Source: Candidatus Venteria ishoeyi (lineage in GTDB: Bacteria > Pseudomonadota > Gammaproteobacteria > Beggiatoales > Beggiatoaceae). Taken from it: a stretch of DNA of 64,000 nucleotides. Below, piece by piece: positions 54,463 to 61,655 of the stretch; position 1 is the stretch's first letter, and each line of letters begins with the position of its first letter. The notes under the pieces were generated by a model. It was not told where the DNA came from and searched no databases. It saw nothing but the letters and a program-made list of their open reading frames with translations. The position numbers and the translations under genes were made by a program. The stretch is taken from the NCBI RefSeq assembly GCF_030378065.1, contig NZ_JAUCGJ010000014.1, positions 23,708 through 87,707 on the forward strand. Reading direction: 5' to 3'.

Positions 54463-55113
54463 TTACTTGCGCACCCGTTTTACCAGCTTGTCATTTTTAT
54501 AATAACGCTTGGCCTGGAGTTTACCTTTTTTATTATATTCTTTGGAAACACCATCTATTTTTCCATCACTAAATTCATGCACCAGATATTTTTCTCCGGT
54601 CGAATAAAAAATTGTTGCAGCAATTGGTACACCATTTTTAAATGTCCAATCACCCTGTACCCGACCATTTCTGAAATAACCTTTAGCGCTGCCATTTTTT
54701 TTGCCACCGATATAAGTACGTTCTGCTTTGAGTTTACCGTCAGGAGCATATTCTTTTTCCATACCTTCCTGAATACCACCAACCAGATGGCGTTCGCGGA
54801 ATAGTTTGCCACTGGAATGGAACTCACGCACGACTTCATGCTTTTTATTTCTTTTATAGGTAAATTCGTATTCGATCTGACCATCTTGACGATAGCGTTT
54901 TTCAGCCGTTAATTTACCTTTTTCATAAAAAAACTCAGTTTTTAAGTTATTGTTTTCATGAAATTCTTTGCTGACACCATGACGCCTGTTACCATCGTAG
55001 TTATAGATAAAATGTACTGCACCCGATGGATATTTTTTAATCTCTTCTTTTGCTAATACAGCCTGCAAGGGCAATAATAACAAAATGGAGAATAATACGT
55101 GTTGATAGCGCAT
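54463..55113 (-). CDS. MORN-repeat protein inserted between nuoI and nuoJ
   Basis: This 216-residue protein has a signal peptide (VLFSILLLLPLQAVLA-KE) followed by about seven MORN-like repeats of about 22 residues (GVSKEFHENNNLKTEFFYEKGKL, GRVQGDWTFKNGVP, GKIDGVSKEYNKKGKLQAKRYYKNDKL). It belongs to the group databases often label YwqK-type antitoxin, but that name does not prove such a role. MORN repeats bind lipids or proteins. It is on the nuo strand between nuoI and nuoJ, so it is probably co-transcribed. It may help complex I assembly or be an unrelated insertion. Confidence 0.78.
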   Translation of the reverse strand: MRYQHVLFSILLLLPLQAVLAKEEIKKYPSGAVHFIYNYDGNRRHGVSKEFHENNNLKTEFFYEKGKLTAEKRYRQDGQIEYEFTYKRNKKHEVVREFHSSGKLFRERHLVGGIQEGMEKEYAPDGKLKAERTYIGGKKNGSAKGYFRNGRVQGDWTFKNGVPIAATIFYSTGEKYLVHEFSDGKIDGVSKEYNKKGKLQAKRYYKNDKLVKRVRK

Positions 55114-56736: not shown

Positions 56737-59139
56737 TTAAAGCACCTTAATCTGAATTGCGCCATACCAATCCGCCAGTGTCGAGGTCTCTGATTGTCCC
56801 CCGTACAATAGCACACACCCTGGGCTGACTCTTGAGTCCAATACCGCATTAAGTTCTGCCTGTCGGCCATTTTGTTCCAGTAACACAGATTGCCCATCCT
56901 GGATATTCAGCTTTTCAGCATCATCCGGGTGTAAATGTGCACCGCTGGCTTGTTTGCCATCAGTCGTTTTTTGTAATACCGTAGCGCGACGCACCATGGC
57001 ATCCGTGGCATACATGCCCATTTCTGTTAAGCGCTGCAAACCATTGTTGTTCGCACTTGGCAGTGCCTCAGGTAGCGACCAGGCATTTTCCTGATCCGGT
57101 ACAATATTTTCCAGCATTTGACTGCGCATCTCGCTGGCAATTTGATCCGAAGCGGTATACTCAAAGCCTTCAAGATACAACAAATTAGCCAGTACACGCA
57201 ATATTTTCCAGCCGGGACGTGCTTCACCTGCGGGAGAAACCGCGCCTGCAAAAGACTGCCAAATCCCTGCGGCATTCACAAAAGTCCCTGAAGTTTCTGC
57301 AAACAAGGCCTTTGGTAATAAAACGTCGGCATATTCTTGCATGGTTTCAGTTTTAAATGCACTCAGAGAAACCACAAAATCGGCTTGCTTTAAGGTTTCA
57401 AGCGACTGGGTACCATTCCAGCTATCCAGTTCAGGCTCTAAATCAAGTAATAAATAAGCATTGAGGGGATTGCTTAACATGCTGTTTGCATTTTCCCCTG
57501 CCTGAGTGACAACTGTTCCACCGACACCACGATGCGGCAGGACGCCAGCTAACCAGGCTCCGGCACTGTTGCCAGCTTCACTTAAATAGCCTAATTTAGC
57601 CCCGCTTAGTTTTGCAATCAGACCGGAGAGTCCGCGTAAGATGGCAAAATCCGGCTGAGAAAAGGCAAGCTGGCCTAATAATAAGCTTGCATTTTCTGCT
57701 GTCAGTAAGGATTTTGCAATATTTTGCTGCGTTTCACTGGGACTGACATTTGCCAGTAATTTTTCAGCATCTGCATCAGTTGCGGTTTTGCTTTCATTGC
57801 TTAATGCTTTAGCAATACCTGCCAGGGCTTCCACCATCTGGCTGGGCGCTGTAATAATTTTTTCAGCAATCGGCAGATTAAAATCATAATCAACGGGATT
57901 GAGCAACATCACATCGGCAGCAATCGATTCATCAATCTGCCCGACCCGATTATAAGCAGCCTTGCGTAAACGCTGATTTAATAAAGGTTGCTCTTTGCGC
58001 AGATTGGAGCCAATGACTAAAACACTGTCACAATCTTCTAAAGCTGCAATTGATTGTCCCAAACGCGGGAACAAGGGGGCCATATCCTGATCGCTGAAAT
58101 CAATCTGGCGCAAGCGGTGATCAATGTTATCACTGCCCATGCCACGCAGCATTTTCTGGAACAGGTAAAGCTCTTCCAGGGTTGCCGTGGGGGAAGCTAA
58201 ACCACCCAGGGTTTTGTTTTGATCGTTAATGACCGCTTTCAGACCCGCCACAACAAATTTTAACGCACTTTCCCAATCTGTTTCCTGCCACTGACCTTCT
58301 TTTTTGATCATAGGACGGGTTAAACGATCTTCAGCTTGCAATGCACTATAACTGAAACGATCTTTATCTGATAACCAGACTTCATTAACCGCTTCATTTT
58401 CTTTAGGCACGACGCGGAAAACTTTATTATTACGAATATGGAAATAAAGATTGGAACCCACAATATCATGTGGCGCGATGCCAGCGCGTTGCTGCATTTC
58501 CCAGGCTCGCGCCTGAAACCGTGAGGGCTTGGCAGTGAGCGCGCCTACCGGGCAAACATCAACCATGTTGCCGGAAAGTTCTGAGTCGATGGTTTTTTCT
58601 ATATAAGGGCCAACCAGCGTGTGTTCGCCGCGTCCGGTTGCGCCCATTTCCGGCATACCGGCAATTTCCCGGCTGAAACGCACACAACGGGTACAGTGAA
58701 TGCAACGGGTCATCTCAGTTGCAATCAATGGCCCCAGGTTTTTATCCATCACCACGCGCTTTTCTTCTGCAAAGCGTGATACATCGCTACCATAAGCCAT
58801 GGCAACGTCTTGTAATTCGCATTCACCGCCTTGATCGCAAACTGGGCAGTCCAGCGGATGATTGATCAGCAGAAATTCCATGACTGATTTCTGTGCGGCT
58901 TTGGCCTTATCGGATTGGGTGTGTACCACCATGCCATCCATGATCGGCGTTGCACAGGCAGGCAGGGGCTTGGGCGCTTTTTCCACATCGACCAGACACA
59001 TACGGCAATTAGCCGAGATTGACAGTTTTTTGTGGTAGCAAAAACGAGGAATCTCAATACCATTGTCATCTGCCACGTCGATCAGCATTTGACCTGACTC
59101 TACCTGGTATTCCTTTCCGTCAATTGTGATCGTTGCCAT
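56737..59139 (-). CDS. nuoG: NADH-quinone oxidoreductase subunit G
   Basis: The protein has 800 residues from the ATG at 59139; a TTG one codon earlier is unlikely. The 2Fe-2S site uses RFCYHKKLSISANCRMCLVDV and ACATP; the His-ligated cluster is in HPLDCPVCDQGGECELQD; further 4Fe-4S ligands are CIHCTRCVRF and VDVCPVGAL. A molybdopterin-like domain follows from residue 215 but binds no cofactor in this family. It carries most of the iron-sulphur chain of the peripheral arm. It is 21 bases after nuoF. Confidence 0.96.
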   Translation of the reverse strand: MATITIDGKEYQVESGQMLIDVADDNGIEIPRFCYHKKLSISANCRMCLVDVEKAPKPLPACATPIMDGMVVHTQSDKAKAAQKSVMEFLLINHPLDCPVCDQGGECELQDVAMAYGSDVSRFAEEKRVVMDKNLGPLIATEMTRCIHCTRCVRFSREIAGMPEMGATGRGEHTLVGPYIEKTIDSELSGNMVDVCPVGALTAKPSRFQARAWEMQQRAGIAPHDIVGSNLYFHIRNNKVFRVVPKENEAVNEVWLSDKDRFSYSALQAEDRLTRPMIKKEGQWQETDWESALKFVVAGLKAVINDQNKTLGGLASPTATLEELYLFQKMLRGMGSDNIDHRLRQIDFSDQDMAPLFPRLGQSIAALEDCDSVLVIGSNLRKEQPLLNQRLRKAAYNRVGQIDESIAADVMLLNPVDYDFNLPIAEKIITAPSQMVEALAGIAKALSNESKTATDADAEKLLANVSPSETQQNIAKSLLTAENASLLLGQLAFSQPDFAILRGLSGLIAKLSGAKLGYLSEAGNSAGAWLAGVLPHRGVGGTVVTQAGENANSMLSNPLNAYLLLDLEPELDSWNGTQSLETLKQADFVVSLSAFKTETMQEYADVLLPKALFAETSGTFVNAAGIWQSFAGAVSPAGEARPGWKILRVLANLLYLEGFEYTASDQIASEMRSQMLENIVPDQENAWSLPEALPSANNNGLQRLTEMGMYATDAMVRRATVLQKTTDGKQASGAHLHPDDAEKLNIQDGQSVLLEQNGRQAELNAVLDSRVSPGCVLLYGGQSETSTLADWYGAIQIKVL

Positions 59140-59160: not shown

Positions 59161-60459
59161 CTATTGACCGTTGACCTGGCTTTTACCATGCTCAATCATA
59201 TACTCAAACTCACCACGATAATGCTTGAGGAAACTAACTATCGGCATTGCCGCAGCATCACCTAACGCGCAAATCGTTCGCCCCATAATTTTATCGGCTA
59301 CATCATCGAGTAAATCAAGATCTGCCATCTTGCCTTCCCCGTGTAAGATGCGATGCAAGACTCTGGATAACCAGCCAGTGCCTTCACGACACGGCGTGCA
59401 TTGACCGCAGGACTCTTCATAATAAAAATGCGCAACACGGGCTAACACTTTAACCATACAAGTGGTTTCGTCCATAACAATCACGGAACCTGCGCCCAGC
59501 ATGGAACCCACTTCAGTGATACCGTCATAATCCATCGTGGCATTCAGCATAACATCGCCCGGTACCACAGGGGTTGAAGAGCCACCTGGAATCACCGCTT
59601 TCAGCGTATGACCATCGCGCACGCCACCTGCCATTTCCAGTAATTGAGAAAAAGGCGTACCCATTGGTACTTCATAATTACCGGGTTTATTGACATGACC
59701 GGAAACTGCAAATAACTTGGATCCCCCATTATTGGGTTTGCCCAAATTCAAAAACCATTCTCCGCCATTGGCTAAAATAGAAGGGACTGAAGATAAGGTT
59801 TCTGTATTATTAATCGTTGTGGGTTTGCCATAAAGTCCGAAAGCGGCGGGAAATGGCGGCTTAAATCGTGGCTGGCCTTTTTTGCCCTCTATGGACTCCA
59901 GCAAAGCGGTTTCTTCACCGCAGATATAAGCACCCGCGCCACAATGGGTGTATAAATCAAAATCAACGCCGCTGCCTAAAATATCCTTGCCCAGCAAACC
60001 CGCTTCATAGGCTTCAGCCAGTGCCGCTTCAAAGCGATCAAATGGCTCATAAAATTCACCACGGATATAGTTATAACCCACAGTTGCGCCAATGGTATAA
60101 CCCGCGATAATCATGCCTTCAATCAAGGCATGAGGATTATAGCGCAGAATATCGCGATCTTTAAAAGTACCCGGCTCGCCTTCATCGGAATTACAGATAA
60201 TATATTTCTGTATACCTGCCATTTTTTTTGCGCTGGCTTCATCCCGTGGCAACATAAAACTCCACTTAAAGCCTGTTGGGAAGCCTGCACCACCACGACC
60301 ACGCAAGGCTGAAGTTTTTAATTCTTCAATAATTTCAGTCGCTGGTGTTTTTTCTTTTAAAATTTTGCGTAAAACTTCATAACCACCTGCACTTTCATAG
60401 GTTTTCAGCGTCCAGGGTTGATCCAGATGCATAGTGCGGAAACAGACTTCATTTGCCAT
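59161..60459 (-). CDS. nuoF: NADH-quinone oxidoreductase subunit F
   Basis: This 432-residue protein binds NADH and FMN ([50 protein letters not shown]). The N3 4Fe-4S cluster is bound by [15 protein letters not shown] plus a later Cys in [10 protein letters not shown]. It oxidises NADH and passes electrons to NuoG. In most operons nuoE lies directly upstream; here a nuclease-like gene (60525-61121) is between them. Confidence 0.97.
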
Positions 60460-60524
60460 CGCTATTTACTCTTAAATTAATCTTCATAGTAAGCACATCA
60501 ACACCTATTCTTGTCGCTATTAAA

Positions 60525-61121
60525 CTAGGAAAGTTTTGAAACTTTATCAAATACCCAATTCAAGCTATTAAATGTTTTTTGTAAATTATCAGTTGCGGAA
60601 ACTGATACAGGGTCTACTGTGAAAACATTATTTTCCAATTTTCCAAATTCCCACATTTTCCCTGTTGTCACAATACCATAACAGGAATCTGCACCTGACA
60701 GGGAAGATGCAACCATTTCTGCAAGCGCTTGCGCCCATCCCTCATCAAAATTATCCCGTTTGGCTTCTATAATGCAAAGTGAAGGCTTTGCCATACCGCC
60801 ATATTTTGTTCTTGGTGCAATTAAATAATCAGGCTCGCCAATCAGTCCTTGTTGTTCATCAATATTATAAGCAACATGAGACCAAACTTTAAGTTGCGTA
60901 TAATTTTCAGCAACAGCATTAAGGATTGGACTGATAACTCGCTCACAAATTGCAACTTCATTAATAAAGCTCATGCCGTCGTTTATACTGTTTGCAATCA
61001 GAGTGTATAAAGCTATCGATATGTTGGCTTCCTTTTGCTTAATAAAGGTAGATTTATCAGCAACCTGAATATCAAACTTGCTGGCAACCTCGACAACGGT
61101 TTTAAAATTACTATAAGCCAT
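60525..61121 (-). CDS. Putative PD-(D/E)XK nuclease-fold protein inserted between nuoE and nuoF
   Basis: This 198-residue protein is not related to complex I. It shows a possible restriction-endonuclease-like site: Glu60, then Asp98 in GEPDYLIAP and Glu119-Ala-Lys121 in CIIEAKRDNF, fitting PD-x20-(D/E)xK. The last 50 residues (GIVTTGKMWEFGKLEN) recall proteins linked to type I restriction or DUF-type nucleases. No signal or membrane segment is seen. It lies on the nuo strand with 65- and 39-base gaps, probably co-transcribed. No partner methylase is in view, so its target is unknown. Confidence 0.65.
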   Translation of the reverse strand: MAYSNFKTVVEVASKFDIQVADKSTFIKQKEANISIALYTLIANSINDGMSFINEVAICERVISPILNAVAENYTQLKVWSHVAYNIDEQQGLIGEPDYLIAPRTKYGGMAKPSLCIIEAKRDNFDEGWAQALAEMVASSLSGADSCYGIVTTGKMWEFGKLENNVFTVDPVSVSATDNLQKTFNSLNWVFDKVSKLS

Positions 61122-61160
61122 TGTTACGCTTGCACCTAAATCTATTGCTAAAAATATCGA

Positions 61161-61655
61161 TTAATTTAGCTTGCCAATAATCTCATCAACTTTTTCAGTG
61201 GTGAGATTTTCATAATATTCTCGCCCAATCGCAAACATAGGCGCGCCACCACAAGCCCCCAGACACTCAACTTCTTTTAAGGTAAATTTATTATCTGAGG
61301 TGGTTTCACCCATTTTAACGCCCAGCTTGTTTTCAAGATGGGACACAATCTCATCAGAACCGCACAACATGCAGGAAACATTGGTGCAAACACAGATTTT
61401 ATGCTGCCCAACAGGTTTATGCTCATACATGGAATAGAAGCTGGCGACTTCATAAACAGCAATGGCTGGTATATCCAGATAATCAGCCACCGCATCCATT
61501 AATTCTGTTGTCAGCCAACCGCCGTTTGCATCTTGCACAATCGTCAGGGCAGGCATCACCGCAGACTGCTGACGCTCAGCCGGATATTTTTTTATCCAGT
61601 GATCGATTTCTGCACAAATATCTGAAGATAATAGAGCTGATTTGCTTTCTGACAT
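61161..61655 (-). CDS. nuoE: NADH-quinone oxidoreductase subunit E
   Basis: This 164-residue protein carries the 2Fe-2S cluster N1a in CTNVSCMLCGSDEI and CLGACGGAPMF. It works with NuoF in the NADH-oxidising module. It follows nuoD by 30 bases. Length and motifs are normal. Confidence 0.97.
   Translation of the reverse strand: MSESKSALLSSDICAEIDHWIKKYPAERQQSAVMPALTIVQDANGGWLTTELMDAVADYLDIPAIAVYEVASFYSMYEHKPVGQHKICVCTNVSCMLCGSDEIVSHLENKLGVKMGETTSDNKFTLKEVECLGACGGAPMFAIGREYYENLTTEKVDEIIGKLN

Follow-up and report, generated by a model that had tools for sequence, protein, structure and literature searches.

A solitary gene for a probable PD-(D/E)XK-type nuclease between nuoE and nuoF of Candidatus Venteria ishoeyi belongs to a dispersed multicopy family that may spread selfishly

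The window analyzed here is a stretch of 64,000 nucleotides from Candidatus Venteria ishoeyi in which the succession of nuo genes is interrupted by an additional gene. Between nuoE (61161-61655), an open reading frame (ORF) sharing 67-79% identity with nuoE of 29 relatives, and nuoF (59161-60459), also recognized from its ORF and from relatives, lies a solitary PD-(D/E)XK-type nuclease gene of 198 codons (60525-61121; product of 198 aa), assigned on its ORF, its match to the PADLOC profile PD_DExK, a conserved site and its base composition. All three genes are on the minus strand, and the placement of this gene by the initial annotation is correct in coordinates, strand and flanking genes. On the same strand, the inserted stretch is bounded at its 5' edge by the 39-bp gap between the nuoE stop and the nuclease ATG (61122-61160), delimited from the sequence and from the spacing found in relatives, and at its 3' edge by the 65-bp gap between the nuclease stop and the nuoF ATG (60460-60524), delimited from the sequence. 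From the stop of nuoE to the start of nuoF the distance is 701 bp in all, and besides the nuclease ORF the insertion consists of these 39 and 65 bp of non-coding DNA, without any further gene or cargo. The GC content of the nuclease gene is 37.0% vs. 43.0% for nuoE and 46.0% for nuoF (43.0-48.3% across nuoE, nuoF, nuoD and nuoG), and its GC3 is 28.6% vs. 40.0 and 40.4%, respectively (40.0-48.6% across the same four genes).

No transposase gene was found in the sequence at the insertion, and no non-coding RNA reaches the gathering score between positions 59000 and 62500 of the window. The best direct match that could represent a target duplication does not exceed the level of shuffled sequence (P 0.138). 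An imperfect 23-nt inverted repeat flanks the gene, with one arm at 60473-60495 and the other, which overlaps the nuoE stop, at 61146-61168; its arms are 74% complementary, which is not significant by shuffling (P 0.086). Elsewhere in the window, a gene coding for a MORN-repeat protein (54463-55113) directly follows nuoI.

The nuclease assignment draws on PADLOC PD_DExK (PDLC01472), a model annotated as CRISPR-associated, which matches the window protein with an E-value of 3.7e-47 over residues 55-195, i.e., nearly the whole model, and which also matches 46/46 aligned members of the family. Pfam and NCBIfam return zero families for the window protein at E-values up to 10, PHROGs a single weak match (E 0.35), and a search by sequence against solved structures gave no convincing match. 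The initial annotation had proposed a possible PD-(D/E)XK site formed by Asp98 and Glu119-x-Lys121. Across 72 copies, these putative catalytic residues are conserved in 71, 70 and 72 cases, respectively, along with Q131 and E135 (72/72 each) and E55 (69/72). The exceptions are D98N at locus L016, E119A in the copy located between pyrH and frr in this genome (L004), and E119C at L093. Given this conservation and the 46/46 PADLOC matches, the presence of the predicted Asp98/Glu119/Lys121 triad is beyond chance, and at the sequence level a PD-(D/E)XK-like site is well supported. The fold itself is predicted less directly: two AlphaFold2 runs with 4 sequences yielded poor models (mean pLDDT 46.4 and 44.8), the order of elements in the first being compatible with a PD-(D/E)XK core, and Foldseek on a poor model, to which we give little weight, returned nothing at E<=0.001, its third match being a putative restriction endonuclease domain (E 0.05). 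Because of the quality of these models, our statements on the fold are drawn from the sequence. The site proposed initially is upheld, and the nuclease fold is a sequence-based prediction.

Eleven places in this genome match the family. Matches occur in 29 of 57 genomes (the window's own counted), with up to 49 places per genome, and all 29 genomes belong to the same family (f1) as the host of the window, none of the 21 genomes outside f1 matching at E<=0.001. In a sample spread across the class, 7/369 genomes match, in four families. Close homologues, sharing 72-74% protein identity in one comparison and 71-73% in another, are found in Ca. Parabeggiatoa sp. HSG14 (genome G032), in Ca. Electrothrix aarhusensis and in a MAG of Desulfobacterales. 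Homologues are also present in 21 plasmid records, in which by our reading every genus named is cyanobacterial, one record bearing no name. No homologue was detected in 50,697 phage records, nor in viral contigs by a peptide-pattern search. Several genomes contain decayed copies that are interrupted by stops or fragmented. The copies analyzed here are better-scoring ones selected from the 57-genome search, ORF pieces shorter than 150 aa or lacking a recognized start being excluded, and pairs of copies are mutually non-independent. The 74-copy set used for pairwise comparisons leaves out the same-place duplicates L020 and L012, together with one ORF from a different family at each of L079 and L080; the 72-copy set used for conservation, orientation and homology limits further omits L075 and L078; and the 76-entry set used for neighbors still includes the two other-family ORFs. 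An iterated profile also uncovered a distant relative of ~250 aa adjoining the nuclease at L079 (2846-3635, reverse) and L080 (3392-4184). G001 and G035 carry this ~250-aa relative in versions that are 97% identical at the DNA level, the similarity reaching barely beyond its ORF, a stretch that also has 87-89% DNA matches at two other places in G025.

The initial annotation had suggested examining the synteny of nuoE and nuoF across relatives. The nuoE loci of 29 relatives were fetched, nuoE being matched in 51 genomes if that of the window is counted. nuoE-nuoF is the usual order: nuoF begins 4-52 bp after nuoE in 13/29 relatives and 242-851 bp after it in 5/29, and is absent from the 773-1494 bp fetched behind nuoE in 11/29. 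The nuclease has no tblastn match at E<=1e-5 in any of the 29 nuoE stretches; the gene is present in nuo here and in no fetched relative. Other small genes occupy this position or come after it. In G003, a DUF2283 gene and a palindromic repeat are located between nuoE and nuoF (L058, 2127-2321), a junction of 12 bp in the sister genome G027, and Phd/YefM-like antitoxin genes, whose matches fall just under the curated cut-off, lie behind nuoE in G002 (L047, 2044-2295) and G026 (L049, 2051-2302), with nuoF not nearby. The nuoE-nuoF junction tolerates intruders. In G018, a second, shorter nuoE-like ORF lies between nuoE and nuoF (L053, 1991-2266, minus strand) and shares 44% identity with the C-terminal half of NuoE.

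Its location inside nuo might mean that the gene acts in regulation or repair connected with complex I or respiration. Ca. Electrothrix aarhusensis carries a 71%-identical copy in its own nuo operon (L071, 1961-7922), where a nuoL-like gene in two frames is followed by the nuclease copy and an alkaline phosphatase gene (PF00245), and then by nuoM. Yet no fetched relative has the gene behind nuoE, and the other copies of this genome lie outside nuo as judged by eye, making such a function very improbable. Neighboring genes in this genome were named by eye from their translations unless a Pfam family is cited. Besides nuoE-nuoF, intergenic copies sit between yqgE and ruvX and between pyrH and frr, the latter with a short antitoxin-like piece in between. 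One copy lies beside SulP-like and dabB-like genes, another in a run of glutaredoxin and secretion-platform-like genes, another after a barstar gene (PF01337) and ahead of an ABC permease gene, and another in a pheT-ihfA-merR-methyltransferase run. Of the remaining copies, two have one opposed neighbor and two are located at contig ends. The copies in this genome sit among housekeeping genes, and by eye the window copy is the only one in nuo. A nuoM-like neighbor of paralogue L007 was considered as a complex I gene and rejected, as it adjoins a large dabA-like gene and a SulP-like gene (by eye).

Among the 72 copies, the nearest upstream ORF (at least 80 aa, within 1.5 kb) is co-oriented in 55/65 cases and the nearest downstream one in 46/67, which departs from the one half expected of a randomly oriented insert (P 1e-8 and 0.003, respectively). 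Control ORFs of at least 150 aa are nevertheless co-oriented with their upstream neighbor in 83/99 cases within copy loci and in 148/192 within longer stretches, and with their downstream neighbor in 87/120 and 140/187 cases, respectively. Since ordinary ORFs show the same co-orientation, the copies are oriented like normal operon genes, without any special bias, and orientation was withdrawn as support for mobility.

Pairwise comparison of the 74-copy set gave 52 pairs with more than 80% DNA identity, of which 48 reside at unrelated loci, flank homology being absent within ~2.2 kb on each side (less at contig ends). The 4 pairs with shared flanks comprise two pairs on duplicate contigs within one genome and two pairs at orthologous loci, where the copy stayed put (L079/L080 and L098/L102). 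Copies found in Parabeggiatoa and in Desulfobacterales share 84.7% DNA identity (dS 0.73), a figure to be read with possible MAG contamination in mind. Copies in G001 and G035 match the G025 copy at L097 with 97-98% identity, yet in those two genomes the counterparts of the genes flanking L097 are only 76-84% identical and lie on other contigs; a reverse search starting from G035 found its flanks at 76-82% identity in G025, on contigs where no near-identical copy was reported. The G035 copy at L105 is 98.4% identical to a copy located elsewhere in G001. The family is dispersed in many copies and transferred: unrelated loci, and different lineages too, carry near-identical copies. The idea that an essential operon serves as a stable site, put forward in the initial annotation, fits poorly with 48/52 close pairs at unrelated loci, with 0/29 fetched relatives sharing the placement, and with the other small genes found behind nuoE.

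For the 43 pairs that share 85% identity or more, duplicates removed, the median limit of homology on the upstream side is 13 bp before the ATG, and never more than 74 bp; on the downstream side the median limit lies 7 bp inside the stop, and homology reaches at most 34 bp past it. Shared 8-mers near the edges occur in at most 4/72 copies. In the orthologous pair L079/L080, homology breaks off at distances of 17 and 20 bp and resumes further out, indicating that a fast, repeat-driven turnover of gaps contributes to such tight limits. Tight limits alone are therefore no proof of a bare unit, since a fixed locus is equally tight and short repeats reshuffle the gaps. Short dispersed repeats with many occurrences in the respective genomes lie at or near both edges of the nuclease at L105 in G035 (1896-2004 and 2637-2718, reverse) and at L097 in G025 (1961-1995 and 2709-2744, reverse).

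The main alternative explanation for near-identity is gene conversion, within or between genomes, acting on old paralogues fixed at their loci and mimicking recent relatedness. Conversion would homogenize the ORF and stop where homology stops, as do the limits observed here, and a nuclease cutting its own paralogues could drive it. By itself, however, it leaves unexplained the variable presence of the gene, exemplified at nuoE-nuoF by the 0/29 relatives with a match in the nuoE stretch. It is also at odds with a G001 stretch (L154) whose anchors are 92-98% identical to the surroundings of L105 and which contains no nuclease match, although several further kb of DNA are likewise missing from it, and with the searches between G025, G001 and G035, which reported no copy near the matching flanks as far as the contigs reach. 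We consider this explanation improbable. Six DNA searches from G025, G035 and G027 copies provided no clean empty allele for a recent copy; they returned flanks on separate contigs, rearrangements, a lone flank, or what looks like a deletion scar, the latter when comparing contig C40 of G027 with G003, which keeps the 3' end of the gene. The fragmentation of the assemblies, this lack of a clean empty allele, the two orthologous pairs, the candidate-defense neighbors described below and the absence of a transposase gene, significant inverted repeat or target duplication at the window insertion were counted against the explanation by a mobile gene; the base composition of the window gene, low in GC and GC3, was counted in its favor.

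Alternatively, the gene could be an inactive passenger on other mobile DNA such as short dispersed repeats, in which the flanks in G001, G025, G035 and G003 are rich. However, dN/dS ranges from 0.04 to 0.34 in the 50 pairs that differ, which together with the near-invariant catalytic residues indicates purifying selection on the nuclease protein, and the window insertion holds only 39 and 65 bp of non-coding DNA and no other gene. An inactive passenger is accordingly a distant prospect.

A more serious contender is an anti-phage defense nuclease, either an orphan restriction enzyme or an accessory to other defense genes, lodged by chance in a well-expressed operon. Besides the CRISPR-associated annotation of PADLOC PD_DExK, this possibility draws on the neighborhoods of several homologues. 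Three cyanobacterial plasmid loci from the 21 records were opened: two, chosen on account of their annotation, lie inside cas operons, one of type III with two tandem copies and one of type I-D with the copy between cas10d and cas7d, and the third, the top match, lies outside any cas operon. Candidate-defense ATPase genes were found within ~2.5 kb of copies at five loci in G001, G016, G031 and G035 when the groups recurring among the 76 neighbor entries were scanned for defense profiles: AbiLi-like AAA_21 ATPases according to PADLOC at L087, L089 and L095, and HEC-01A/HEC-01B pairs (AAA_21 and DUF4276, the latter being the HEC-01B part) at L090 and L107. A former statement that the family has no defense neighbors was withdrawn after these matches. 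In addition, an N6/N4 DNA methyltransferase gene (PF01555, E 1.4e-41) is found 6 bp away from a subfamily-B paralogue of this genome, and the two possibly form a restriction-modification pair (L172, 4053-5660; G000 C52:32052-33659, in the pheT-ihfA-merR-like run).

Several observations weigh in the opposite direction. The neighbors of the window copy are nuo genes, with neither cas genes nor an adjoining DNA methyltransferase gene, few defense genes appear by eye among the 11 places of this genome, and no CRISPR locus was seen around its copies as far as neighbors were inspected by eye. Across the 76 entries, no single partner family emerges: family relatives are neighbors in 8, and every other group reaches at most 4, same-place duplicates counted. 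Up to 49 places per genome are hard to reconcile with one restriction specificity each, and homologues are absent from the phage records and from the viral contigs searched. On our reading, the association with CAS in the label of the PADLOC model may stem from insertion into operons, as at the two plasmid loci, which as examples are too few for proof. We regard defense as unlikely overall, while it gains from the orientation control, the defense neighbors at five loci and the tight limits at L079/L080. As for the initial proposal of a defense gene for which an essential operon offers a stable location, what the data retain is a nuclease-like gene, with a site as conserved as an active nuclease would have it, that intrudes between nuoE and nuoF. 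A defense role at this locus is not supported: the neighbors are nuo genes, the defense label comes from a CRISPR-annotated model, and copies in this genome sit among housekeeping genes. The comparisons above speak against a stable site.

On balance, we consider it slightly better than an even chance that the window gene stems from selfish spread: solitary PD-(D/E)XK-type nucleases of its multicopy family would travel as a short unit, one copy of which became inserted in nuo. A short piece of DNA carrying a ribosome-binding site and the ORF would be transferred between lineages and integrate at a break between host genes, which the nuclease itself, predicted to cleave DNA, may cause. The break would then be repaired using the nuclease's own gene as a template, in a homing-like fashion but without a fixed site, and the insertion would survive where its harm is small and transcription is present. 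Here, the mobile unit would measure at most ~700 bp and comprise little beyond the ribosome-binding site and the ORF, and its entry into nuo would have occurred in this lineage. Selfish spread, rather than service to complex I or dedicated defense, would account for the position between nuoE and nuoF. More speculatively, and in our opinion rather doubtfully, the family could represent a class of elements made of a ribosome-binding site and a nuclease ORF only, without ends, transposase or fixed target. The nuclease would cut DNA between host genes, a copy of its gene (or of the message) would fill the break, and the element would thereby roam the operons of filamentous bacteria across phyla. 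Both selfish spread and this narrower proposal were weakened by the same three observations that strengthened defense.

Solitary multicopy PD-(D/E)XK families are counted as putative defense or toxin genes largely on the basis of gene neighborhood. If such families generally insert between genes, neighborhood evidence, including association with CRISPR, can mislead. As mobile DNA, a gene-sized element lacking recognizable ends would be unusual; the insertion sites collected here make the question of mobility testable.

The family was compared with several known systems. PADLOC PD_DExK, a CRISPR-associated nuclease family, matches the window protein and its 46 aligned relatives; the copies of this genome differ from it in residing outside CRISPR loci, as far as their neighbors were inspected by eye. 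Free-standing homing endonucleases of the phage T4 seg/mob type are nuclease genes without intron or partner that lodge between host genes, as the members of the window family do alone between genes; in contrast, close copies of the latter have no common insertion site, 48/52 close pairs being found at unrelated loci. A likeness to the N-terminal domain of HsdR is suggested by a plasmid homologue annotated as an HsdR N-terminal-domain protein, which matches HSDR_N_2 (E 1.9e-4), and by a distant relative in L089, which matches HSDR_N (E 5.9e-4), both below the curated cut-off; Cas4 provided further weak matches among homologues. The 198-aa window protein differs in having no helicase part and itself matches neither HSDR_N nor HSDR_N_2. 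According to the accessible part of PMC2701414, cyanobacterial Uma2 (COG4636) is likely a solo PD-(D/E)XK toxin that is multicopy, has rare antitoxins and occurs mostly in cassettes of paralogues. It thus resembles the window family as a solitary, multicopy, predicted PD-(D/E)XK nuclease. It differs in these cassettes, only 8/76 entries of the window family having a family member nearby, and in that the window protein has no Pfam match at E-values up to 10. Uma2, XisH and PDDEXK_2/Rpn were found neither for the window protein nor among the 15 Pfam families listed for 46 members. Within the titles and abstract openings searched, subscription papers being partly covered, the family is nowhere described as a gene-sized mobile unit, and the accessible part of PMC10580974 has no match for the word "nuclease". 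In the same kind of organism, PMC4853749 describes PD-(D/E)XK_2 putative transposases, xisHI and MITEs for Thiomargarita: such transposases and XisH of Thiomargarita and Beggiatoa are likewise multicopy PD-(D/E)XK genes, and transfer among filamentous gliding bacteria is discussed in the part of PMC6390638 that was available.
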